This document shows, in pieces, positions 4,003 through 46,354 of a stretch of 64,000 nt of DNA. The DNA comes from Cyanobium sp. N.Huapi 1H5. GTDB lineage: Bacteria > Cyanobacteriota > Cyanobacteriia > PCC-6307 > Cyanobiaceae. A program made the translations under genes and the position numbers. The stretch is from positions 124,001 to 188,000 of the forward strand of contig NZ_JAGQBH010000005.1 of assembly GCF_024345535.1 (NCBI RefSeq), in the 5' to 3' direction. The notes under the pieces are model-generated. The model made no database searches. It was given only the letters and a program-made list of their open reading frames with translations, and was not told the origin of the DNA. Position 1 is the stretch's first letter, and every line of letters starts with the position of its first letter.

Positions 4003-6047
4003 CCCGCTCCGCTTCCGGCCCCAGCCTGAGCGGCGGCGAGGCCGCCGATTCCTTCAGCCTCTGGCGGGCGCGGCTGCAGCGCTGGTGGGCGGAGTTCAGC
4101 CTCCAGACCAAGCTGCTGGCGGTCGCCACCCTCGTGGTGAGCCTGCTGATGACGGGCATCACCTTCCTGGCCCTCAATGGCATCCAGCGCGATGCCCGGA
4201 TGAGCGACACCCGCTTTGCCCGGGATCTCGGTCTGCTGCTGTCGGCCAACGTCACCCCCCTGGTGGCGGAGGGCAATGACCGGGAACTGGCCTCGGTGGC
4301 CGAACGCTTCTGGCAGTCCAGCCGCAGCCTCCGCTACATCTTCTTCGCCGATTCCGACGGGGTGATCTACCTCGGCATCCCGATGGGCGGCAGCACCGGC
4401 ATGGGCGAACGCGTGCTCAGCCGACGCCTGGAGCTGCCGGCCGACATCCAGCGCCGCCCCGACAATCCCCTGATCCGCCAGCACCTCACCCCGGACGGCC
4501 AGGTCACCGACGTGTTCGTGCCGATGGTGAGCGACGGCCGCTACCTGGGGGTGGTGGCCCTGGGCATCAACCCCAACGAGACGCTCCTGGCCAGCGCCGC
4601 CCTCACCCGGGAGGTGACGGTGGCGGTGTTCATCTCGATCTGGGTGCTGGTGATCCTGGGCTCGGTGTTCAACGCCCTGACGATCACCCAGCCGGTGAAG
4701 GAGCTGCTGCGAGGGGTGCGATCGATCGCCGGGGGCAATTTCGAGACCCGCATCGCCCTGCCGGTGGGCGGCGAGCTGGGGGAACTGCTCAACGGCTTCA
4801 ACACCATGGCCTCCCAGCTGGAGGTCTACAAGGCGGCCAACATCGAGGAGCTCACCGCCGCCCAGGTGAAGCAGCAGTCGCTGATCGCCACCATGGCCGA
4901 TGGCGCCGTGCTGCTCGACGCCGAGGGCCGTATCGTGCTGGCCAACCCCACCGCCCGCCGTCTGTTCCGCTGGGAGGGCCGCAACCTGGAGGGCAGCGAG
5001 CTGGCCGCCGAACTGCCGGACCGGCTGGCGATGGAGCTGCACGATCCGCTGGAAAGCCTGATCACCAGCGAGCGGGACACCACCGAGGTGCGCTGCAGCT
5101 TCGGTGATCCCCCCCGCACCCTGCGCATCGTGCTCCAGTCGGTGCGGGATGCCAGCGGCGAGAGCCTCAAGGGCATTGCCATGACGATCCAGGACCTGAC
5201 CCGGGAGGTGGAGCTGAATGCCGCCCAGAGCCGCTTCATCAGCAATGTGTCCCACGAGCTGCGCACGCCCCTGTGCAACATCAAGAGCTACGTGGAGACG
5301 CTCCACGACATGGGCGACCTGCTCAGCGCCGAGGAGCAGAAGGAGTTCCTGAGCATCGCCAACGCCGAGACCGACCGCCTCTCGCGCCTGGTCACCGACG
5401 TGCTCGACCTGTCACGGCTGGAGTCCGACCGGGTCTGGCAGCTGGAGCCCATGGACCTGGCCCCGGCGATCGAGCAGACCCTGCGCACCTACCGGCTCAA
5501 CGCCGAGGAGAAGGGGGTGATGCTGCTGTTCGCCGGGGATCAGCACCTGCCTCGGGTGCGGGGCAACTGGGATCTGCTGCTGCAGGTCTTCGACAACCTG
5601 GTGGGCAACGCCCTCAAGTTCACCCGCAGCGGCGGCCAGCTGCTGCTGCGCGCCTACCCCTGGCCCGACCACTGCCCGCTGGATCCCGGCGGTCCGGAGG
5701 CCCATCCCTCCTGCACGCTCACCTCGCGCCTGCCGCGGCTGCGGGTCGAGATCGCCGACACCGGCTGCGGCATCTCCGAGGCCGATCAGGCGCGGATCTT
5801 CGAGCGCTTCTTCCGGGTCGAGAACGCCGTGCACACCGAGGCCGGCACCGGGCTGGGACTCTCGATCGTGCGAGGCATCCTCGAAAAGCACGGCAGCCAG
5901 GCCCGGATGGCCAGCGAGCCCGGTGTGGGCACCACCTTCTGGTTCGACCTGCCCCTGGAGGAGGCCGACGGCGATGAGCTCCGGGTCCAGGCGGAGCGGT
6001 CCGCCTCGATGGCCGACATCGAAGCGGAACGAAGAATCGCCGTCTAG
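3999..6047 (+). CDS. nblS: NblS/Hik33-type membrane sensor histidine kinase
   Basis: Essential cyanobacterial stress sensor (light, nutrient, cold) that feeds the RpaB/SrrA regulators in species studied. The 682-residue protein has TM1 at about 42-62, a periplasmic region, TM2 at about 206-228 (FISIWVLVILGSVFNAL), HAMP, a PAS domain from about 295 (MADGAVLLDAEGRIVLANP), the HisKA phosphoacceptor His419 in NVSHELRTPLCNIKSY, and an ATPase domain with N box (NLVGNALKFT), G1 (ADTGCGISEADQARIFERFF) and G2 (GTGLGLSIVRGIL). It overlaps purD by four bases. The assignment to NblS rather than another hybrid kinase rests on domain order and the distinctive FISNVSHELRTPLCNIKSY sequence. Confidence 0.93.
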   Translation: MTRSASGPSLSGGEAADSFSLWRARLQRWWAEFSLQTKLLAVATLVVSLLMTGITFLALNGIQRDARMSDTRFARDLGLLLSANVTPLVAEGNDRELASVAERFWQSSRSLRYIFFADSDGVIYLGIPMGGSTGMGERVLSRRLELPADIQRRPDNPLIRQHLTPDGQVTDVFVPMVSDGRYLGVVALGINPNETLLASAALTREVTVAVFISIWVLVILGSVFNALTITQPVKELLRGVRSIAGGNFETRIALPVGGELGELLNGFNTMASQLEVYKAANIEELTAAQVKQQSLIATMADGAVLLDAEGRIVLANPTARRLFRWEGRNLEGSELAAELPDRLAMELHDPLESLITSERDTTEVRCSFGDPPRTLRIVLQSVRDASGESLKGIAMTIQDLTREVELNAAQSRFISNVSHELRTPLCNIKSYVETLHDMGDLLSAEEQKEFLSIANAETDRLSRLVTDVLDLSRLESDRVWQLEPMDLAPAIEQTLRTYRLNAEEKGVMLLFAGDQHLPRVRGNWDLLLQVFDNLVGNALKFTRSGGQLLLRAYPWPDHCPLDPGGPEAHPSCTLTSRLPRLRVEIADTGCGISEADQARIFERFFRVENAVHTEAGTGLGLSIVRGILEKHGSQARMASEPGVGTTFWFDLPLEEADGDELRVQAERSASMADIEAERRIAV

Positions 6048-6096
6048 TTCGGGATGGCCTTGACCACGCGGGCGCCCCCGGAGCCCCCGACCGGTT

Positions 6097-7641
6097 TCAG
6101 CTCTCCGCGTCCACGCTGCGCATGATCCGGCCCAGGTCGGCCCGTTCGTCGGTGGTGATGCGGTGGGGAACGCCGCTGATGATGCGCTCGAAATTGGCGA
6201 AGGAATCCTTGATCTCCGGCCCATTGCCGGTGATCACGAATTCCCGGATGCCCTTGTCGTGCCAGGAGCCGCGCATCTTGAACACGTTCAGAGCCCGGGC
6301 CATTTCGCCGCGGATCTCCACATACTGCAGCAGCAGAATGGTGTCGGTGATGGTGGAGATGTGGGAGTCGGTGATCGAATGGCTTCCCATGAACTCCTCG
6401 GAGGTGTTGGTGAAGAAGCCAGCGATCTCCTCCTGTTTGGCATAGCCCGTCACCCCGATCACGAACTGGCGGAAGGCGTTGTGGCTGACACCCCGGGCCA
6501 GGGCGGAGAGGGAATCGATCGCCATCCGGGACGGCTTGAACTGGCTGATCTCCGTCTTGATGATCTGCAGGTGGTCCTCCAGACCGGTGGATTCCGGATA
6601 GGCGCAGATGATCTTGAGCAGGCCGTCCTGCTCCATCTGCTCGAAATCGATCCCCCAGCTGGTGGCGTTGCGCAGCAGCTGGGAGCGGGATTCCTCGTAG
6701 GCGAACAGGATCGCCCGCTCCTTGCTGCGGCAGGCATCCTCCACGAACTTGCTGACCAGCAGCGTCTTGCCGGTACCGGTGGCGCCGGTCGCCAGGATGA
6801 TGGAGTCCTTGAAGAAGCCACCCCCGCACATCTCATCAAGCCGGGGCACGCCGGAGCTGAGCCGCACGTTGGAGGAACGCTGGGTGAGGCGCATCGCCCC
6901 CAGCGGGAAGACGCTGATGCCGTGGCTGCCCATGGTGAAGGGAAACTCCCCCTTCATGTGGGTGGTGCCGCGCAGCTTGAGCACCTCCACCGTGCGCCGC
7001 CGCCGCTCCCCCTCCAGCACGTTGCGCAGGATCACCACGTTGTCGGAGACGAACTCCTCGACGCCGTAGCGGGCGATGGGTCCGTACTCGTCGACACGTT
7101 CGGTGGTCATCACCGTGGTGACGCCGATCTCCTTGAGCCTGGCGATCAGCCGGAAGATCTCGCGCCGCACCACGGAGATGGCGTCGTACTGCTGGAAGAC
7201 GGCGGTGATGGAGTCGATGGCCACCCGCCGCGCCTTGTATTTGCGGATCGCGTAGTGGATCCGCTCGATCAGGCCGGAAAGGTCGAAACTGCCGGACACC
7301 TCCTGACCATCGGGGTCCGGGGAGGCATCGAGGACAAACAGCTTGTTCTGCTCGACCATTTCCTGCAGGTTCCAGCCGAAGCTGGAGGCGTTGCGCAGGA
7401 TGTCGAGGGGCGACTCCTCGAAGGTGACGAAAATCCCGTGCTCGTTGAACTGCCGGATGCCGTTGCAGAGAAAATTCAGGGAAAAGACCGTCTTTCCGGT
7501 TCCCGATGTTCCGCTGATCAGGGTCGATCGGCCGATCGGCAGCCCGCCATGGCAGATGTCATCGAAACCTTCGATCCCCGTGGGGAGTTTCTGCATCTGC
7601 ATTCGATTGGCAGCGGCGTCGTGGTCGTTGGGATCCGGCAT
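6097..7641 (-). CDS. kaiC: Circadian clock ATPase/autokinase KaiC
   Basis: Core hexameric clock protein with two RecA-like domains: CI ATPase and CII autokinase/phosphatase. From the ATG at 7641 it has 514 residues. CI Walker A is GTSGTGKT (44-51) with the Glu pair E75/E76; CII Walker A is GATGTGKT (286-293) with E316/E317. The phosphorylation pair equivalent to S. elongatus Ser431/Thr432 is Ser429/Thr430 in TDSHISTITD. An in-frame GTG at 7737 overlaps the kaiB stop (GTGA) and would add 32 Pro/Ser-rich residues; the ATG is preferred because conserved sequence starts at about residue 18. The gene is convergent with nblS. Confidence 0.97.
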   Translation of the reverse strand: MPDPNDHDAAANRMQMQKLPTGIEGFDDICHGGLPIGRSTLISGTSGTGKTVFSLNFLCNGIRQFNEHGIFVTFEESPLDILRNASSFGWNLQEMVEQNKLFVLDASPDPDGQEVSGSFDLSGLIERIHYAIRKYKARRVAIDSITAVFQQYDAISVVRREIFRLIARLKEIGVTTVMTTERVDEYGPIARYGVEEFVSDNVVILRNVLEGERRRRTVEVLKLRGTTHMKGEFPFTMGSHGISVFPLGAMRLTQRSSNVRLSSGVPRLDEMCGGGFFKDSIILATGATGTGKTLLVSKFVEDACRSKERAILFAYEESRSQLLRNATSWGIDFEQMEQDGLLKIICAYPESTGLEDHLQIIKTEISQFKPSRMAIDSLSALARGVSHNAFRQFVIGVTGYAKQEEIAGFFTNTSEEFMGSHSITDSHISTITDTILLLQYVEIRGEMARALNVFKMRGSWHDKGIREFVITGNGPEIKDSFANFERIISGVPHRITTDERADLGRIMRSVDAES

Positions 7642-38366: not shown

Positions 38367-39470
38367 ATGGGCAAGGGTCGGGAGCTGGGTCTGCAGCTGC
38401 GGGAGTGGATCGCCACCGGTTCCGTCAGCCTGGACAACCCCCAGGCCCTGGCCAACCGCCTGATCGATGCCCTCGGGGCGGAAGAACATCTGCGCGGTCC
38501 CGTCCGGGACCTGGCCACCCAGCCCCTGCTGCAGCGGGTGCTGCAGCAGCAGGGGGGTCCGCAGCGCAGCGCCATCGCCTCCCTCAGCAGCCATCTGGCC
38601 GGGATCTACACGCCGGCTGTGCTGGCCGAACTGCTTGACCTGCTCGAGGCCAGTACCGGTGTGGCCGCCACCAGGCCCGGCGCCGATGCGTCAGCGTCCG
38701 GTTCCATGGCCGCCGCCGTGCCCCTTCCCCTGGGCCGGCTGGAGATCCTGCGACCCCTCGGCCCGGGGCTGGCCCTGGCCGCCGCCTCGGCCCCGGTGCT
38801 GTTCTGGGCCGGCGGGGAGCTGGAGCAGTGGTTCTTCGATCCCTGGGGCTGGAGCAGCGGCCTCGTGCTGGTGGTGGCCCTGGCCCTGATCCAGGCCCTG
38901 GCCCTCGGCCCCCTGAAGCCCCTGCGCCGCCGCTGGCCCCTGAGCCTCGAGGCCAGCGGTGATCCCCACCGCGCCTGGTGCTGGATCACGGCCCCCTGGA
39001 TCCATGCAGCCAACGGCGAGGCCCTGCACAATCTGGTGATCCTGGTGATCGTGCTGGGCGCCTCGCCGCTGCCGCTCTCCTCCCTGCTGCTGCGCTACGC
39101 CCTCGTCGCCCTGGCCACCACGGCGCCGGCGGTGCTGGTGGCCCGCCGGGCCCGGGTGCTGCGGCAATGGGACGGCGCCTCCGGGCCCATCGCCGGCCTG
39201 ATCGCCCTGGCCTGCACCCTCAGCCTGCTGCACTGGAAGGTCCACCCCTTCGTGGTGGGGGCGGTGGACATCCCGGCTTGGGTGCTGCTGGTGGTCTACG
39301 GGGGGCTGCAGCTGGGCTGGCAGCTACCCCGCCGCGATCCCCAGGACACCAGCACCCCGGTGGCCCGGCTCCTGAGCAGCCCCTGGTGCTGGGGCACCCT
39401 GGCCGGCATCGCCTGGGCCCTGGTGACCCGCGCCCAGGAGCTGGGCAGGGACCTGGGCTGGCTGGGCTGA
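38367..39470 (+). CDS. Rhomboid-like polytopic membrane protein, probably catalytically inactive
   Basis: The 367-residue product has a soluble helical N-terminus (about 110 residues) and roughly six to seven membrane segments. Rhomboid-like features are visible: an HxxN...HN element (WIHAANGEALHNLV, His213, Asn216, His221, Asn222) and a GASG motif (WDGASGPIAGLIA) with Ser272 at the position of the protease nucleophile. The partner His expected in a HxxG motif of a later helix is not found; the corresponding stretch appears to be WCWGTLAGIAWAL. I infer a divergent rhomboid fold, possibly a pseudoprotease. It lies 31 bases after atpC and could be co-transcribed. Confidence 0.7.
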   Translation: MGKGRELGLQLREWIATGSVSLDNPQALANRLIDALGAEEHLRGPVRDLATQPLLQRVLQQQGGPQRSAIASLSSHLAGIYTPAVLAELLDLLEASTGVAATRPGADASASGSMAAAVPLPLGRLEILRPLGPGLALAAASAPVLFWAGGELEQWFFDPWGWSSGLVLVVALALIQALALGPLKPLRRRWPLSLEASGDPHRAWCWITAPWIHAANGEALHNLVILVIVLGASPLPLSSLLLRYALVALATTAPAVLVARRARVLRQWDGASGPIAGLIALACTLSLLHWKVHPFVVGAVDIPAWVLLVVYGGLQLGWQLPRRDPQDTSTPVARLLSSPWCWGTLAGIAWALVTRAQELGRDLGWLG

Positions 39471-39488: not shown

Positions 39489-41795
39489 TCAGCCCGCCAG
39501 GGCGCGCATGTACCGCCCCCAGAGCTCGGCCACCAGGGCGCCGGAGGCGGCCTCGGCCGGGCGGTTGTCGTCGTTGCCCATCCAGATGCCGGTGAGGATG
39601 CGGCTGGAGGGGGAGTAGCCCACGAACAGCACATCGACGCCGTTGTCGGTGGTGCCGGTCTTGCCGCGGGCATCGGCCACCACCCCGGCGGCGCGGCCGG
39701 TGCCGCCGCTCACCACCCCCCGCAGCAGGGCATCCATCTCGGCGGCCACCGCCGGTTCGATCAGCTGCTGGGGTCGCTCTCCGATCGGCGTGGTGACGCC
39801 GGCGGCCGGACAGGTGTCCAGGGAGCGCACCGAGCCGCAGATGCCCAGGTCGTAGATGCGCGTCACGCCATGCAGGGGCACCGAGCGGCCGCCGTTGGCC
39901 ACCACGGCATAGGCCCGGGCCAGCTCGTAGAGGAAGGTCTCCTTGCCGCCCAGCACCATCGAGAAGCTCTCCTCCATCGGCGTGCTGATGCCCAGCTGGC
40001 GGGCCTTGGCCACCACCTTGTTCAGGCCGGCCTGCTGGGCCAGCCGCAGGGCCACCACGTTGTCGGAGCTGGCGAAGCCCGCCGCCACACTGGTGCTGCC
40101 ACCGCCGCCCCGGCAGCCGGCCACGTAGGCCAGGGGGGCGCAGGAGACGGCATCGCCGGGCTTCGCCCCCGCCTCCAGGGCCGCCAGGAAGGCGAACAGC
40201 TTGAAGGTGGATCCGGGCTGACGCAGGGCCTGCACCCGATCGAAGCTCGAACGGCTGTAGTCGCCGCCGCCGACGTAGGCCAGGATCGCGCCGGTGGCGT
40301 AGTCGATCGAGATCATCGCGCCCTGGGTGAGCCCGGCCCGGCCCCCTGGCCCTTCGAGGAACGCCTTCAGCTGCTTCTGGGCGATGGCCTGCAGGCGGGG
40401 ATCGATGCTGCTGATCACCGCATAGTTGCCCCGGGCCTCCGCACTGCTGAGGTCGAGGGCGAAGCGGCGCCCTTCCAGCTCGCCGATCACGTAGTCGCTG
40501 AAGAAGGGGTAGCTGGAATAGGTGGATTCGCGGCAGGCGGAGGGGTCGATGTTGAGCGGCCGGCGGCGGGCGTCGATCAGCGCCTGGTCGGAGAGATAGC
40601 CCTCGGCGTGCATCCGTCCCAGCACCAGGTCGCGGCGCTCCCGGCCCCAGGTGGGGTTCTCCCGGTTGCAGGGGCTGTAGCTGTTGGGGCTCGGCAGCAG
40701 GCCCACCAGGAACGCCGACTCCGCCACATCCAGGGCGCTGGCCGATTTGCGGAAGTAGAGCTGGGCCGCCTGCTCGAAGCCCTCCGCCCCCAGGCCCAGG
40801 TAGGCCCGGTCGAGGTACATCTTGAGGATGCGGTTCTTGCTGAAGCCCGCCTCCAGCTGCCAGGCCACCCACAGCTCCCGCAGCTTGCGGGCCACCGACA
40901 CATCCGTGCCCACGGCCGGGTAGACCATGCGGGCCACCTGCTGGGTGAGGCCGCTGCCGCCGCCGGTGCCCTGCACCAGGGAGCGCAAGGTGCCGAACAG
41001 GTCGATGCCGCTGTTCCAGCCGAAGCGCGAATCCTCCGAGGCGATCAGGGCCTGGCGCAGGTGCAGGGGGTAGTCGGCCAGGGTCGGCAGGGCCGTCGAG
41101 GAGCCCTCGGCCGCATCGATCTGGCGGCCGTCGGTGGAGAACACCTTCACCGGCCCGCTCACCGAGCGGATCGAGGAACCGCCGGCGACGGTGGTGGCCA
41201 GCAGCAGGCCCCCCAGGGCAACGCCCGAGCCCACCAGGGCACCGATGGCGCCCCAGTGCACCAGCTGCCCCAGGGGGCTGCGGGGATGGCGGTACACCAG
41301 GGTGGGCGCCTCCCCCTTGAGCGGGGAGCCGAGCTGGAGACGGTCCCCATCCCGCAGGCGGATGGCGCGGATGCGGCGATCGCGGTGGAACAGGCCGTTG
41401 GCGGAGCCGAAGTCCTCACCCACGTAGTCCCGATCACCGGGCCGCTCCTGCTCCACGATCGCGTGCACCCGGCTGACGCCGGTGGCGTCGGCCTGCAGCT
41501 CGCACAGGGGATCCCGGCCGATGCGGTAGCGGCCCCCCTCCAGCGCCAGCCGCCGGCGGCACTGGCCGCCGATCCAGAGCTCCAGCCAGGCGCCGTGGTG
41601 CCTCAGCCCCCCCAGGGCCGCCGTCAGGTCCCGGCGGCGGCCCCCCGCCGAGGGGGCGGTCAGGGCTCGCCAGAGGGCGGGCCAGCCGGCAGGCCCGGCC
41701 GGTGTGCCGGGGGATTGGGAGGCTGGTGCGGTGCTGGGTGCGGCGTTGGATGCGGTGCTGCCGCCAGGCGACGCCTGCTCCGTCGTCCCCACCAT
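39489..41795 (-). CDS. FHA-domain class A penicillin-binding protein
   Basis: Bifunctional peptidoglycan synthase with a phosphothreonine-reading domain in front. The 768-residue protein has a Pro/Ser-rich start and an FHA domain at about 70-170 (YRIGRDP, SRVHA, GSANGLF). TM lies at about 183-203. The GT51 glycosyltransferase has the catalytic Glu in ASEDSRF (Glu254), GLTQQVARM and ARKLRELWVAWQLE. The transpeptidase has PGSTFK (Ser529/Lys532), SSDN (577-579) and GKTG (712-714). In GT51 the usual His after EDxRF is replaced (EDSRFGWNSG). The ATG at 41795 is used; upstream sequence is antisense to the next operon. It is divergent, 59 bases away, from an operon encoding another FHA protein, a kinase and a phosphatase. 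Confidence 0.93.
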   Translation of the reverse strand: MVGTTEQASPGGSTASNAAPSTAPASQSPGTPAGPAGWPALWRALTAPSAGGRRRDLTAALGGLRHHGAWLELWIGGQCRRRLALEGGRYRIGRDPLCELQADATGVSRVHAIVEQERPGDRDYVGEDFGSANGLFHRDRRIRAIRLRDGDRLQLGSPLKGEAPTLVYRHPRSPLGQLVHWGAIGALVGSGVALGGLLLATTVAGGSSIRSVSGPVKVFSTDGRQIDAAEGSSTALPTLADYPLHLRQALIASEDSRFGWNSGIDLFGTLRSLVQGTGGGSGLTQQVARMVYPAVGTDVSVARKLRELWVAWQLEAGFSKNRILKMYLDRAYLGLGAEGFEQAAQLYFRKSASALDVAESAFLVGLLPSPNSYSPCNRENPTWGRERRDLVLGRMHAEGYLSDQALIDARRRPLNIDPSACRESTYSSYPFFSDYVIGELEGRRFALDLSSAEARGNYAVISSIDPRLQAIAQKQLKAFLEGPGGRAGLTQGAMISIDYATGAILAYVGGGDYSRSSFDRVQALRQPGSTFKLFAFLAALEAGAKPGDAVSCAPLAYVAGCRGGGGSTSVAAGFASSDNVVALRLAQQAGLNKVVAKARQLGISTPMEESFSMVLGGKETFLYELARAYAVVANGGRSVPLHGVTRIYDLGICGSVRSLDTCPAAGVTTPIGERPQQLIEPAVAAEMDALLRGVVSGGTGRAAGVVADARGKTGTTDNGVDVLFVGYSPSSRILTGIWMGNDDNRPAEAASGALVAELWGRYMRALAG

Positions 41796-41854
41796 CCCGG
41801 GCCCGTCCGCCTTGCTCCCATACGCTACCCGCAGCGATCGGAGCGGCCGGCCAG

Positions 41855-42136
41855 GTGGAGCAACGCCGGGATCCATGGGCACCCTTCCGCATCTGGACCG
41901 CCCTGACCATCGGGGTCTATGCGCTGCGGGCCAGCTTCGCTGCCACCTGGGTGGGGGCAATCCCCGGCTGGGTGCTGCTGCTGCTGCTGCTGGTGGCCCT
42001 GCTGCTGGCCAGCTGGGCGCTGCTGTTCCCCGGACGGATCGTCCCCTGGCGGGAGGGGGAACCGGTGGGCTGGTGGGGCCGGTTCCTGGCCGATCGCCGT
42101 CTCGGCCGGCGCGGCGGCGTGGTGGACGACCCCTGA
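41855..42136 (+). CDS. Small membrane protein heading the phosphosignalling operon
   Basis: No family recognised. From the GTG at 41855 the product has 93 residues: a short soluble start (EQRRDPWAPFRIWTALTIGV), a strong membrane helix (GWVLLLLLLVALLLASWALLF) and a basic, Trp-containing tail (WREGEPVGWWGRFLADRRLG) likely cytoplasmic. The first segment (IWTALTIGVYALRASFAA) may be a second helix. An in-frame start farther upstream would lie opposite the divergent FHA-PBP start. Its stop shares one base with the ATG of the FHA gene (TGATG). Confidence 0.65.
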   Translation: MEQRRDPWAPFRIWTALTIGVYALRASFAATWVGAIPGWVLLLLLLVALLLASWALLFPGRIVPWREGEPVGWWGRFLADRRLGRRGGVVDDP

Positions 42137-42870
42137 TGAGCCCCCTTCCCCGCCTGGTCCTGCGTGACGATCCCGGCCGGAGCGTGCCGCTGGATCCCCG
42201 CACGCCCCTCTCCATCGGCCGGGACCCCGCCAGCGGCCTCTGCCTGGCCGAGGCCCGGGGCGTCTCCCGCCACCATGCCCTGGTGCGGATGTCCCGCACC
42301 CGGGCGGGCCAGTGGCTCCTCTGCGACACGGGCAGCGCCAACGGCACCTGGCTCGAGGGGGCCCGGCTGAAGGACTGCCGCCCCCTCTCCGACGGCGACG
42401 AGATCCGCCTGGGCCTGAACGGGCCAGTTCTCCAGTTCCGCGCCGGCTCCCCCAGCGCTCCGCCAGCGGCCCTTGCCCCTGCCACCCGCGGCCGACCGGC
42501 GCCGCTGCCGGTGCCGACGGCGGTGGCCGGACAGCTGGATTTCGCCGGCCGCTCCCTGCCCCTTGATCGGATCCGCTCGGCCTACGTGCGCAGCCGCCGG
42601 CGCCATCCCCAGGCCTTCAGCTGGTGGCTGCTGCTCTGCCTGGGCGGGCTGCTGCTGCTCCCCTTCCCCTGGCTGTTCTGGCCGCTGCAGGCGGGGGCGC
42701 TGGCGGGCTGGATCGTGCTGGGCTCCCGCTGGGAGCATCTGCTGGAGGTGACGCTCCAGGACGGCCTGGCCTACCGGCACCGCTTCGACAGCCTGGCGAC
42801 GGCCCTGGCCCACCGCAACGGCATCCGCCGGGCGATGGCGACGGCGGCCCCCGCCGGGAGGCGGCCATGA
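42136..42870 (+). CDS. FHA-domain membrane protein
   Basis: Phosphothreonine-binding protein anchored in the membrane. The 244-residue product has an N-terminal FHA domain with the canonical residues: SIGRDP (Gly28, Arg29), SRHHA (Ser44, His47) and GSANGTWL (Asn69). A Pro-rich linker follows, then a membrane hairpin at about 162-197 (WWLLLCLGGLLLLPFPWLFW, AGALAGWIVLG) and a short basic C-terminus. Its ATG shares a base with the preceding stop, and its TGA overlaps the kinase ATG by four bases. It is a likely reader of the kinase encoded next. Confidence 0.88.
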   Translation: MSPLPRLVLRDDPGRSVPLDPRTPLSIGRDPASGLCLAEARGVSRHHALVRMSRTRAGQWLLCDTGSANGTWLEGARLKDCRPLSDGDEIRLGLNGPVLQFRAGSPSAPPAALAPATRGRPAPLPVPTAVAGQLDFAGRSLPLDRIRSAYVRSRRRHPQAFSWWLLLCLGGLLLLPFPWLFWPLQAGALAGWIVLGSRWEHLLEVTLQDGLAYRHRFDSLATALAHRNGIRRAMATAAPAGRRP

Positions 42871-44222
42871 ACTGGATCCTGCCGGAGGGCGCCAGCCTCG
42901 GCTTCGAGGGGCTGGCCGCCCCGCTGCGGATCATCCGCGGCCTCGGGGGCGGCACCCAGGGCCAGGTGTACGAGGTGGAACTGGAGGGGGAACGGCTGGC
43001 CCTGAAGTGGTACCTGCCGGCCTGCATCGCCCGCGACGCCGGCCTGGAGCGGCGCCTGGCGGCCAGCATCCGGGCGACCGCGCCGAACGACGCCTTTCTC
43101 TGGCCGATCGCCCTGCTGCGGGCCAGCCCCGCCAGCCGGCCCCTGATCCGCATCCGCGAGGAGAGCTTCGGCTATCTGATGCCCCTGCGTCCCCCCGCCT
43201 ACGTGGGGGCCAGCGAGCATGCCGCCGGCCGGCTGGCGATCGGCCTGCGCCAGGTGCTGCGGGCCTGCTTCGGCCTGGCCGACGCCTTCCACGCCCTGCA
43301 CCTGGCGGGCCTCTGCTACAAGGACGTCTCCCTGGGCAACCTCTTCCTGGAGCCCGGCGGCGGCGGCATCCTCATCTGCGACAACGACAACGTCGCGGTG
43401 GATGGGGCCGAGCCGGGAGCCGTGCTGGGCACCCCGGGTTTCATGGCCCCGGAGGTGCTGCTCGGGCAGGCCCGTCCCGGGGCCGACAGCGATCTCTTCT
43501 CCCTGGCGGTGCTGCTGTTCCGGCTGCTCACCCGCCACGACCCCCTCAAGGGCCAGATGGAGCTGGCGATCCGCTGCCTCGACGAGCCGGCCCGCCGGCG
43601 CCTCTGCGGCGAGGACCCGGTGTTCATCTTCGATCCGGTGGACGCCCGCAACCGGCCCGACCCGATCGAGCACGCGGCCGCCCTGATCACCTGGCCCATC
43701 TACCCCCGCCCCCTCCAGGCCCTGTTCGAACAGACCTTCTGCCGCGGCATGAAGCAGCCCTCGCGCCGCGCCCTCACCGGCCAGTGGAAGCAGGAGCTGG
43801 CCCGCACCCTCGATCAACGCAGCCTCTGCCCCGCCTGCGGCCAGGAGAACTTCCAGGCCGCTGGCGCGCCGGCGCTGTGCTGGAGCTGCGGCAGTCCCCT
43901 GCCGCAGCCGATCACCCTGGCCCTGCCCCGGGGCCCGGTGCTGGCCGCCCCGGACAACGAGCTGCACCCCCACCATTTCGATGCCCTGGTCGGGGAGGAT
44001 CTGCGGCGGCCGCTCGCCCGGGTGGTGGCCCATCCCCAGGACCCCCGTCGCCTGGGGCTGTGCAATCTCTCGGCCGCCGCCTGGAGCGCCGAGGCCGCCG
44101 ACGGCCGCAGCTGGCCGGTGGGGCCTGGCGAGAGCTGTAGCCTCGCGGCACTCATCCGGATTCTCACCCCGGCGGGTCCGATCGCCGTGCAACGCCCCAT
44201 CCCGCCAGCCCCCGCCGCCTGA
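42867..44222 (+). CDS. Ser/Thr protein-kinase-like protein with zinc ribbon
   Basis: The 451-residue product has a kinase domain (about 18-300), a CX2C...CX2C zinc ribbon (Cys321, 324, 338, 341) and a C-terminal beta-rich domain (about 365-451; VVAHPQDPRRLGLCNLSAAA). Kinase motifs: glycine loop GLGGGTQGQVYEV, Lys47 in LALKWY, catalytic loop YKDVSLGN (Asp153, Asn158; YKD replaces HRD), CDNDN (172-175) in place of DFG, and MAPEV (APE). The metal-binding Asp is retained, so activity is plausible but should not be assumed. No membrane segment is seen. Architecture resembles kinases of the TerY-P triad (E. coli YegI-like). Confidence 0.87.
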   Translation: MNWILPEGASLGFEGLAAPLRIIRGLGGGTQGQVYEVELEGERLALKWYLPACIARDAGLERRLAASIRATAPNDAFLWPIALLRASPASRPLIRIREESFGYLMPLRPPAYVGASEHAAGRLAIGLRQVLRACFGLADAFHALHLAGLCYKDVSLGNLFLEPGGGGILICDNDNVAVDGAEPGAVLGTPGFMAPEVLLGQARPGADSDLFSLAVLLFRLLTRHDPLKGQMELAIRCLDEPARRRLCGEDPVFIFDPVDARNRPDPIEHAAALITWPIYPRPLQALFEQTFCRGMKQPSRRALTGQWKQELARTLDQRSLCPACGQENFQAAGAPALCWSCGSPLPQPITLALPRGPVLAAPDNELHPHHFDALVGEDLRRPLARVVAHPQDPRRLGLCNLSAAAWSAEAADGRSWPVGPGESCSLAALIRILTPAGPIAVQRPIPPAPAA

Positions 44223-44225
44223 GCG

Positions 44226-44963
44226 ATGCCGTTTCCCGACGTCAAGCTGGCCAACCGGCCGCTCCATTTCCTCTACCTCTGCGACTGCTCCGGCTCCATG
44301 GCCGCCTCGGGCAAGATGCAGGCCCTCAACCAGGCCATCCGCCAGTCGCTGCCGGGCATGGCGGCGGTCGCCCGGGACAACCCGGAGGCCCGGGTGCTGG
44401 TGCGGGCCGTGAGTTTCGCCGACCGTGCCGCCTGGCACATCGAGACCCCCACGCCCGTCGATCAGCTGGAGTGGCGCGATCTGCAGGCGGGCGGCATCAC
44501 GGCGATGGGGGCCGCCCTGCAGCTGGTGGCGGCGGCGCTCCAGACTCCGCCGATGGAGGTGCGCGCCCTGCCGCCGGTGCTGGTGCTGATCTCCGACGGC
44601 CAGCCCACCGATGACTTCGCCGCCGGCCTCGAGGCCCTGCGGCGGGTGCCCTGGGCCCAGAAGGCGGTGCGCCTGGCCATCGCCCTCGGCCACGACGCCG
44701 ACCTGGAGGTGCTGCAGCGGTTCATCGGCAGCGAGCCGGCGACGGCGGGCCGTTCCCCCCGCCGACCGCTGCAGGCGGGCAACGCCACCTCCCTGGCCCA
44801 GTACATCCAGTGGGCTTCCACGGCGGTGGTGGGGGCCGCCTCGATGCCCGCCAGCCGGGTCAGCGAGACGCCCCTGGAGCCCGCGGCGGGCAACATCCCC
44901 CTGCCGGATCTGCCCCCCACCGTGCTCGATCCCACCGACGACGTCGGTCCCGTGGTGTGGTGA
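44226..44963 (+). CDS. TerY-like von Willebrand factor A protein
   Basis: Metal-dependent protein-interaction domain. The 245-residue product has a complete MIDAS: DCSGS (Asp20, Ser22, Ser24), Thr92 in AGGITAMGAAL, and Asp124 in LISDGQPTDD. The spacing and sequence around these (LHFLYLCDCSGSM, VRLAIALGHDADLEVLQRFI) resemble TerY/YegL-type VWA proteins. It starts three bases after the kinase stop, and its own stop overlaps the PP2C start (GTGA). It probably bridges the kinase and phosphatase or recruits substrates; that is inference from the triad architecture. Confidence 0.9.
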   Translation: MPFPDVKLANRPLHFLYLCDCSGSMAASGKMQALNQAIRQSLPGMAAVARDNPEARVLVRAVSFADRAAWHIETPTPVDQLEWRDLQAGGITAMGAALQLVAAALQTPPMEVRALPPVLVLISDGQPTDDFAAGLEALRRVPWAQKAVRLAIALGHDADLEVLQRFIGSEPATAGRSPRRPLQAGNATSLAQYIQWASTAVVGAASMPASRVSETPLEPAAGNIPLPDLPPTVLDPTDDVGPVVW

Positions 44964-46354
44964 TCCGCTGGGTGGCGCCGATCGGTGCCAGCCGGACCGG
45001 GGCCGCCCACCGCCGCGCCGGCCGCCCCTGCCAGGACGCCGTGCTCTGCCGCGAGCTGCGGGACCTCGAGGGCCAGCCGGTGATGGTGATGGCCGTGGCC
45101 GATGGCCACGGCGGGCGCCGCTACCGGCGCAGTGAGGTGGGCAGTCGCCTGGCCTGCGAAACGGCCCTGGCCGCCGTGCAGGGCGCCCTGGCGGCCAGAT
45201 CCCTGGATGGGTGGGAGGAGGGCTGGAGCCGCTGGCTGGAGCGGGACCTGCCCGAGGCGATCCAGCGCGGCTGGCTGGAGGCGGTGGCGGCCCACTGGCA
45301 GAGCGATCCGGGGGAGGGCGGCTTCGAGGCCCTTCTCTACGGCAGCACCCTGGGCCTGGTGGTGATGACCCCCCGCTGGTGGGGCCATACCGGCCTGGGC
45401 GACTGGGATCTGGTGCGGGTGGAGGCGGACGGCCAGGCCCGGCTGCTGGAGGAGGAGAACGAGCCCACCGCCCTCGGGGAGGCCACCTGCAGCCTCTGCC
45501 AGCCCCGGGCGGCCACCCTGTTCGCCCGCCGGGCGGGCCTGCATCGGCTCGATGGCGGCGCCGGTGACTTCGCCCTGGTGCTCTGCACCGACGGCATCCG
45601 CAAGTCCTGTGCCACCGATGGCGACTTCCTCACCCTGGCGGCCTGGCTGGCCCGCGGCGACGGCCAGGCGGACCCCGGCGAGGCCGGCAGCCTGTCGGCG
45701 GCGCTGGACCGGATCAGCCGCGAGGGCAGCGGCGACGACGTGACCGTGGCAATTGGTCGTGTCTGGAGCCCAGGCGGCGGGCCGCCACCAGCCCCGCCCC
45801 CGCCGCCCGCCGCACCGGCTCCGTTGGCTCCTCCGGCGCCCCATCCAGCCGAGCCCCTCCAGGCGCCCCCTCCCCCCCGGCGGCGCCGCCCGGCGATCGG
45901 CCGGGCGGTGGCCATCGGCCTGGCCCTGGCCGGCGTCGGGGGGATCTGGCTGGCGTGGAACTGGCCCCACAGCCCGACAGCCCTGCCGCCGACACCCGGC
46001 TCCCCGGGGCTGCGGGCCGCCCGCCTGGAGGTGGAGCGGCTCTGCGGCCAGCCGGCCGCCATTCCCCTGGCGCTGCGCCGCCGCAGCGAGTTGTTCGTTG
46101 CCCTGCGCCAGGGCCGGCAGGATCCCGCCCCGCTGAAGGCCGCCGCCGCCGCCGACCCCCTCGCCGCCCTGATCGCCGCCGATCTCCCGGCGGAGGATCG
46201 CCGCGACGGCACAACCCCGGCTGCCAGCCCGGCTGCCAGACCTGCTGCCGCCAGAGCCGCCCATCGCCCCCTGCGGGCTCTGGGTGCCTGCCCCGCCCTG
46301 CTGGAGGCCCTCGACCGTCAGTGGGCTCTCACCCCGGCCGCCCCTACCCCCTGA
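44960..46354 (+). CDS. Membrane-bound PP2C-family protein phosphatase
   Basis: Metal-dependent Ser/Thr phosphatase. The 464-residue product starts at a GTG overlapping the VWA stop by four bases. Catalytic residues are visible: CQDA (Asp26), VADGHGG (Asp48, Gly49), YGSTLGLVV, LCTDGIRKS (Asp211) and GSGDDVTVAI (Asp259/260). After residue 270 comes a Pro/Ala linker of about 40 residues, one membrane helix (RAVAIGLALAGVGGIWLAW, about 313-334) and a roughly 130-residue C-terminal part, predicted outside the cytoplasm and Ala/Pro-rich. It would remove phosphates placed by the operon's kinase. Confidence 0.9.
   Translation: MIRWVAPIGASRTGAAHRRAGRPCQDAVLCRELRDLEGQPVMVMAVADGHGGRRYRRSEVGSRLACETALAAVQGALAARSLDGWEEGWSRWLERDLPEAIQRGWLEAVAAHWQSDPGEGGFEALLYGSTLGLVVMTPRWWGHTGLGDWDLVRVEADGQARLLEEENEPTALGEATCSLCQPRAATLFARRAGLHRLDGGAGDFALVLCTDGIRKSCATDGDFLTLAAWLARGDGQADPGEAGSLSAALDRISREGSGDDVTVAIGRVWSPGGGPPPAPPPPPAAPAPLAPPAPHPAEPLQAPPPPRRRRPAIGRAVAIGLALAGVGGIWLAWNWPHSPTALPPTPGSPGLRAARLEVERLCGQPAAIPLALRRRSELFVALRQGRQDPAPLKAAAAADPLAALIAADLPAEDRRDGTTPAASPAARPAAARAAHRPLRALGACPALLEALDRQWALTPAAPTP

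Follow-up and report, generated by a model that had tools for sequence, protein, structure and literature searches.

What does a bacterial protein kinase act upon when it is encoded together with a phosphatase and a protein bearing a von Willebrand factor A (VWA) domain? Such trios, known as TerY-P triads, are widespread, and their outputs have mostly been inferred from gene neighbourhoods. In this work we analysed a stretch of 64,000 nucleotides (the window) from Cyanobium sp. N.Huapi 1H5, in which a triad of this type lies opposite the gene of a class A penicillin-binding protein (PBP) carrying a forkhead-associated (FHA) domain, and where the output appears tied to a single assayable enzyme. 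To our knowledge, routes from cytosolic signals to class A PBPs are known in few bacteria. The original prediction, made from the letters of this locus, held that the kinase writes, that two FHA proteins read and that the PP2C phosphatase erases a phosphorylation mark acting on peptidoglycan synthesis. On balance, we lean, although not strongly, towards the triad exerting a dedicated phospho-control over its own paralogous FHA-class A PBP in the picocyanobacteria of this family.

The six genes of the cassette form two divergent units (Table 1), the start codons of the PBP and of a small membrane protein being 59 bases apart. Within the five-gene operon the joins are overlaps of 1, 4 and 4 bases and a single gap of 3 bases, and the gene set and its layout agree in coordinates, frames and domains with what had been proposed. 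From conservation and overlap we infer GTG starts for the small membrane protein and PP2C genes. In the PBP the FHA domain is followed by one predicted membrane segment (residues ~182-200) and then by the catalytic domains, including a transglycosylase domain of family GT51. The window has a G+C content of 71%, and the genome (3.14 Mb in 12 contigs) contains 3 GT51 genes.

Table 1. Coordinates (window positions) of the cassette genes, of sites within them and of a neighbouring gene.
Feature	Position	Strand	Remarks
FHA-class A PBP, 768 aa	39489..41795	-	Pfam FHA 90-156 (E 2.7e-12), Transgly 231-396 (3e-44), Transpeptidase 494-731 (7.3e-22)
GT51 motif I, residues 254-262	41010..41036	-	Glu254 kept; hallmark His replaced by Asn261
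GT51 motif II	40950..40952	-	hallmark Thr replaced by Gly282
GT51 YLN motif	40809..40811	-	Asn replaced by Asp329
Shared intergenic element ATACGCTAC	41820..41828	both	TAnnnT readable each way, 26 nt and 24 nt from the two starts
Small membrane protein, 93 aa	41855..42136	+	conserved RDPW start; no Pfam match, no known family
FHA-membrane protein, 244 aa	42136..42870	+	Pfam FHA 2.3e-15; canonical phosphothreonine pocket in window copy
Ser/Thr kinase with C-terminal zinc ribbon, 451 aa	42867..44222	+	Pfam Pkinase 3.2e-12, residues 132-231 only
VWA protein, 245 aa	44226..44963	+	Pfam VWA_2 2.7e-7; metal ion-dependent adhesion site (MIDAS) D20/S22/S24/T92/D124
VWA tail LPPTVLD, residues 229-235	44910..44930	+	proposed candidate phospho-Thr232 ligand for the PBP FHA domain
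PP2C phosphatase, 464 aa	44960..46354	+	Pfam PP2C_2 3.1e-25; D26, D48, D211, D259/D260 present
ORF367, N-terminal conserved domain and rhomboid-like membrane domain	38367..39470	+	convergent with the PBP gene; Pfam Rhomboid 6e-6

Conservation of the neighbourhood was evaluated in a sample of 150 genomes of the order, the window's counted, with a kinase threshold of E ≤ 1e-20, and in a named collection consisting of the best 80 of 158 relatives (59 loci of the window's family and 21 outside it); the two sets overlap and their counts are not additive. The kinase was found in 33 of the 150 genomes, and the VWA protein in those same 33. In 32 of these, the window included, a PBP orthologue 56-98% identical to that of the window divergently adjoins the kinase genes, and the small membrane protein is present in all 32 PBP-bearing sets. 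The orthologue was absent from 117/117 kinase-negative genomes, where at E ≤ 1e-110 the PBPs are 40-45% identical or lacking (Fisher's test, p = 7e-32, for genomes that are related and hence not independent). Rare co-occurrence, which would have spoken against the predicted link, was thus not seen. The locus L081, whose sole match is an FHA fragment, was excluded from the PBP counts. The six-gene arrangement recurs in 31 further genomes of the 150.

More telling on this link than the Fisher value are the genera of mixed content. In the mixed genus g1 the set occurs in 14 of 15 genomes, and the exception (G125) lacks both kinase and PBP; genera g5 and g14 each have one genome with both (G018 and G143, respectively), the other listed members having neither. 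The cassette adjoins atpB/atpC in most sets read. Three loci (L085, L088 and L092, two of them from single-contig genomes) carry the six genes in order at other chromosomal sites, and none of atpB, atpC, ORF367 or the transaldolase-like, HAD, peptidase and CBS genes lies within ~7 kb on either side of them. Chance adjacency was rejected because the arrangement is conserved in 32 of 33 genomes and holds at several places on the chromosome.

The named family loci give the same picture, with a divergent PBP in 56 of 59 and all six genes in 53; 3 of these 56 stop at contig ends after the kinase. Among the three loci without the PBP, two have fewer than 600 bases upstream, and the third is that of Prochlorococcus sp. 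MIT 0701 (L141). The closest relatives by kinase in this collection are Synechococcus sp. BO 8801 (98%) and Aphanothece cf. minutissima CCALA 015 (95%), followed by Cyanobium and Synechococcus strains. A picocyanobacterial cassette also occurs in a record titled Bifidobacterium breve metagenome-assembled genome (MAG) (L135), a mislabelled or contaminated bin. Gene trees of five members have 13-20 of 29 splits in common per pair, against a mean of 0.1 for shuffled PBP/kinase trees, and in the phylum sample the kinase profile matched 9 of 386 genomes (E ≤ 1e-30), all of the window's family. Judged from these comparisons, the cassette was most likely inherited and moved as a single unit in this family.

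The signalling part is, by its residues, of a known kind. As defined in the available part of PMC11090510, TerY-P consists of a TerY-like VWA protein, a PP2C phosphatase and a Ser/Thr kinase with a C-terminal zinc ribbon. All three proteins of the cassette correspond to this definition, the VWA protein being judged on Pfam VWA_2/VWA and its MIDAS, as had been anticipated for the trio. Kinase residues K47, D153, N158 and D172, the ribbon cysteines C321, C324, C338 and C341, the MIDAS residues given in Table 1 and the PP2C metal ligands are invariant in 33/33 sets, which upholds the intact MIDAS and zinc ribbon of the original prediction; the PP2C gene overlaps the VWA gene. The phosphatase had also been described as a membrane protein. 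The PP2C domain and a weak segment (residues 313-331) are indeed present in the window, but this segment is marginal, scoring 1.74 where the threshold is 1.6, and only 24 of 33 sets have a C-terminal segment called, including L061, where it lies in a read-through extension. A membrane-bound PP2C is thus not supported as a constant feature of the cassette; the PP2C of L088 has 264 aa and no segment, and yet the PBP is present there, and L066 ends at a contig edge. The PP2C frame of L061 (G147) lacks a stop and extends into the stretch of the next gene, reaching 672 aa, which is not the case in the closest relatives.

Outside the family, the kinases of the named collection are 38-43% identical and come from Methylococcales, Chloroflexi, Clostridia, Pyrinomonadaceae, Desulfobacterales and two other cyanobacterial MAGs. 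The kinase and ribbon residues are the same in 21/21 of them, and of the 21 loci, several of them short, 15 contain a VWA gene and 16 a PP2C gene. With the TerY-P triads of CoCoNuT and ter-linked systems the cassette shares the MIDAS, the catalytic residues of kinase and phosphatase, and the ribbon of four Cys. In those systems, however, TerY-P partners a restriction, ter or ATPase system, whereas here it is found with an FHA-class A PBP, two membrane proteins and a VWA tail carrying LPPT. A similar trio beside GTPase-centred systems is described in the available part of PMC7159879.

FHA-PBPs as such are not unique to the cassette, an idea that was discarded because they are common in cyanobacteria and a second one is encoded in the window's own genome. 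In the phylum sample of 146, 67 genomes matched the PBP at E ≤ 1e-90; the 58 same-class genomes listed all align from residues 58-85, so that the FHA domain is included, and in 7 more distant genomes the alignment starts at 215-216 only. No match at this threshold was obtained in four same-family genomes of the sample (G001, G002, G003 and G005), and Pfam confirmed four FHA-PBP paralogues from the window's family. A quick tree was built from 52 rows; it did not resolve the branching order of the main groups, and in it the cassette PBPs formed one clade with a long stem (Shimodaira-Hasegawa-like approximate likelihood ratio test, SH-aLRT, 100). On these alignments, the cassette PBP is a second, diverged paralogue of the cyanobacterial FHA-PBP. 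The housekeeping FHA-PBP has the same order of FHA, GT51 and transpeptidase domains and the same FHA pocket, but it is only 40-46% identical to the cassette PBP, falls in a separate clade and has the canonical GT51 His and Asn. In the window's genome it lies on a different contig from the kinase, and the gene after it encodes a protein with GTPase and DUF697 domains (Pfam; L093:6001-9869). Similar open reading frames (ORFs) were seen by eye downstream in other loci, and this protein is a possible partner.

The cassette PBP has the architecture of a class A PBP (membrane segment, GT51 and transpeptidase), with SxxK, SxN and KTGT invariant in 32/32. It is not a fully canonical GT51 polymerase, as all 32 cassette PBPs carry the substitutions H to N261, T to G282 and N to D329. 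At the corresponding positions, the 36 other PBPs compared have His in 36, Thr in 33 (Ser in 3 housekeeping ones) and Asn in 36, and the hallmark residues are present at all three in the alignments shown for three solved PBP1a proteins. Glu254 and Glu307 are kept. Among columns conserved in the 36 other PBPs, 8 of 64 are switched in GT51 and 5 of 69 in the transpeptidase. To judge by these residues, the polymerase activity may be altered, gated or lost, and the fixed substitutions are, unexpectedly, a natural experiment on an active site known from textbooks.

Two proteins of the cassette could in principle read a phosphothreonine. The FHA pocket of the PBP (R94, S108, H111 and N133) is kept in 32/32 sets; in the FHA-membrane protein of the same sets R29 is present in 27, S44 in 29 and N69 in 15 (Asp in 15, Gln in 2). 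Because roughly half of the relatives have lost the canonical form of this second pocket, the PBP appears, by its pocket residues, to be the consistent reader. The proposal of two readers is therefore supported in part only: the FHA-membrane protein, although canonical in the window, is not supported as an equal second reader and is perhaps a scaffold.

A candidate ligand was found at the end of the VWA protein, where a linker of variable sequence is followed by PLPDLPPT, invariant in 16/16 aligned proteins, with PLPELPPT in one named row (L161). LPPT occurs in 33/33 sets and in 56/56 named family loci with a VWA gene (overlapping sets); 52 of the latter have Asp at +3. The pattern pT-x-x-D is a classical FHA ligand, as in Rad53 FHA1. 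None of 15 VWA tails from outside the family contains LPPT, L185 having PPPT, and 14 of the 15 likewise end in VW. Docking of the PBP FHA domain on T232 of the VWA protein is a tentative prediction, possible rather than probable.

In the mechanism that we propose, the kinase would phosphorylate a threonine of a partner, for which T232 in the C-terminal LPPTxxD tail of the VWA protein is the best candidate. This phosphothreonine would be bound by the cytosolic FHA domain of the PBP, and the PBP would be recruited, or reshaped through the short junction between its FHA, membrane and GT parts. The PP2C phosphatase would reset the phosphorylation, and the two membrane proteins would scaffold the complex. 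From sequence comparison we infer the kinase activity, the phosphosite, FHA binding, the topology, promoter function and the effect on wall synthesis. The proposal nevertheless names its candidates, with VWA T232 as phosphosite, the PBP FHA domain (R94/S108/N133) as reader and PP2C as eraser. A more general and rather doubtful version would make TerY-P triads general phospho-writers for FHA-addressed membrane machines, in which a phosphorylated VWA tail (T232 here) docks on an effector with a matching FHA domain. The effector would here be a class A PBP with a re-tuned GT domain (H to N, T to G, N to D), polymerising or cross-linking only when phospho-VWA is bound, and the tail of MIT 0701 would serve an ABC exporter.

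Several observations weigh against a control dedicated to this PBP. The GT51 substitutions could reflect a polymerase that is weak or inactive, the pocket of the FHA-membrane protein is degraded in about half of the sets as noted above, and the +3 residue of LPPT is Gly in 4 of 56 VWA proteins. The genomes are related, so that 32/33 does not represent 33 independent events, and well-supported splits of the gene trees conflict in 0-3 cases per gene pair. A generic sigma-70 scan found no promoter at the intergenic region. Prochlorococcus MIT 0701 retains the kinase, the VWA protein with LPPT and PP2C without the FHA-PBP, which indicates that the triad can exist independently of that PBP. In none of the 21 outside loci was a class A PBP seen next to the triad; one partial GT51-like match was found ~6 kb away (L175), and the FHA profile detected FHA neighbours in one only, a Pegethrix MAG (L170).

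The last points bear on a first alternative, unlikely in our view, according to which the triad signals through FHA-tagged membrane proteins generally, the PBP being one swappable effector and the primary target maybe elsewhere. The persistence of the LPPT tail in MIT 0701 is in line with it. MIT 0701, which also lacks both membrane genes, gave only one class A PBP match (E ≤ 1e-15), starting at residue 213 and thus past the FHA region, and ~5 kb from its triad it encodes a 785-aa protein with two FHA stretches, an ABC ATPase and ABC-2 membrane domains (L081:1348-3705). This protein is comparable to the FHA-ABC exporter Rv1747 of Mycobacterium tuberculosis, a membrane protein that carries an FHA domain and is a substrate of a Ser/Thr kinase; Rv1747 differs from the cassette PBP in being another effector, with a kinase of another family. 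Likewise, the TerY-P-type kinase of the Pegethrix MAG has an FHA-PrsW intramembrane protease (L170:3462-5978) and a further FHA protein encoded nearby, with a PP2C match at the contig end, and the second FHA-PBP of the window's genome also fits exchangeable effectors. On the other hand, the neighbour of the kinase is this one PBP paralogue in 56 of 59 named family loci, and the fetched flanks of 20 of the 21 outside loci contain no FHA neighbour.

Less likely still is that the two units are neighbours sharing a promoter, co-expressed and co-inherited, without the kinase acting on the PBP. The layout is divergent, and one conserved element lies between the starts. In 30 of 32 sets ATA[CG]GCTA[CA] is found, at a position from -29 to -35 relative to the start of the small membrane protein; in distant sets the surrounding sequence has diverged. 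It has 1 site in the window (0.02 expected) and 2 in the genome, against 17 matches for the reversed control. Bidirectional promoters with overlapping -10 boxes are a known type, and the element probably represents candidate overlapping divergent -10 boxes of a shared promoter, as suggested by its position and conservation. A regulon of this -10-like element was rejected, as there is a single other genome site and the ORFs around it have no visible link. Mere sharing of a promoter has against it the phosphothreonine pocket of the PBP, kept in 32/32 sets, the clade-specific Thr motif of the VWA protein, and the pair staying together at other sites.

An anti-phage or stress-defence module with the PBP as envelope effector is very improbable, for although TerY-P triads are linked in print to tellurite resistance, restriction and defence (available part of PMC11090510; a similar trio in that of PMC7159879) and a phage-integrase-family protein is encoded in the MIT 0701 triad stretch, the cassette lies mostly beside atpB/atpC and not in a variable island, and PADLOC returned generic kinase matches only. 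The MIT 0701 stretch, which also holds trypsin-like protease ORFs, may be a genomic island. Similar protease ORFs were seen by eye near the cassette of G018 (L088:10391-11128) and the MIT 0701 triad (L081:5539-7368), Pfam Trypsin_2 being matched for L088 only.

Downstream of the PBP gene, ORF367 was considered as a seventh member of the cassette. It is present in 30 of 33 kinase-positive and in 0 of 117 kinase-negative genomes. In G113 and G030, however, it stays beside atpB/atpC, unlinked from the cassette, and it is missing from the sets of G005, G018 and G143, which belong to lineages otherwise without cassette or PBP; weakly similar N-domain proteins lie within the fetched stretches of these three. 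ORF367 was for these reasons not retained as an established member; it is a possible one and may simply be a clade marker. An active rhomboid protease is unlikely, the GxSG Ser being present in 18 of 27 only. Homology of its N-terminal domain to ankyrin, LRR or RDD adaptor genes of other phyla was not supported (hhalign probability 0.14). These latter genes, near triads or kinases (L168:8313-9062, L170:1168-2217 and 6025-6975, L177:1967-3460 and 5087-6709, L184:4532-5767, L167:3337-4938), share an N-terminal domain of ~105 aa, joined to ankyrin, RDD or LRR parts in the three checked with Pfam; they would encode an adaptor without a family name.

Kinases, phosphatases and wall enzymes are also linked in other bacteria. 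The actinobacterial operon, in the order fhaA/fhaB-pstP-rodA-pbpA-pknA/pknB, encodes membrane PASTA kinases and a class B PBP with RodA. Kinase, phosphatase, FHA proteins and PBP/RodA-type genes are thus linked there too, the Streptomyces version being described in the available part of PMC6273383. The cassette is not a PknB/PstP/Fha operon, as its kinase has no membrane segment and PASTA, RodA and class B PBP domains are absent from the six proteins; it has a VWA protein, and its FHA domain is fused to a class A PBP. In pneumococci StkP phosphorylates MacP. MacP-PBP2a is, like the cassette as we propose it to work, a case of control at the membrane-polymerase junction, this class A PBP requiring a membrane activator (available part of PMC10746261). 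MacP, however, is a separate small activator, and MacP-PBP2a lacks FHA, VWA and a zinc-ribbon kinase.

A literature search among open-licence papers returned no paper that describes this cassette or links a TerY-P triad to a PBP; the parts available of PMC2176072, PMC2877116, PMC7880944 and PMC12419801 contain nothing on the cassette, and neither did a search on the GT51 His. What is new here, as judged from the alignments, is the conserved LPPT tail of the VWA protein and the three fixed substitutions of GT51 hallmarks in the cassette PBP. That the trio is kept with its own phosphate-reading wall enzyme suggests a dedicated control of wall building in some small cyanobacteria.

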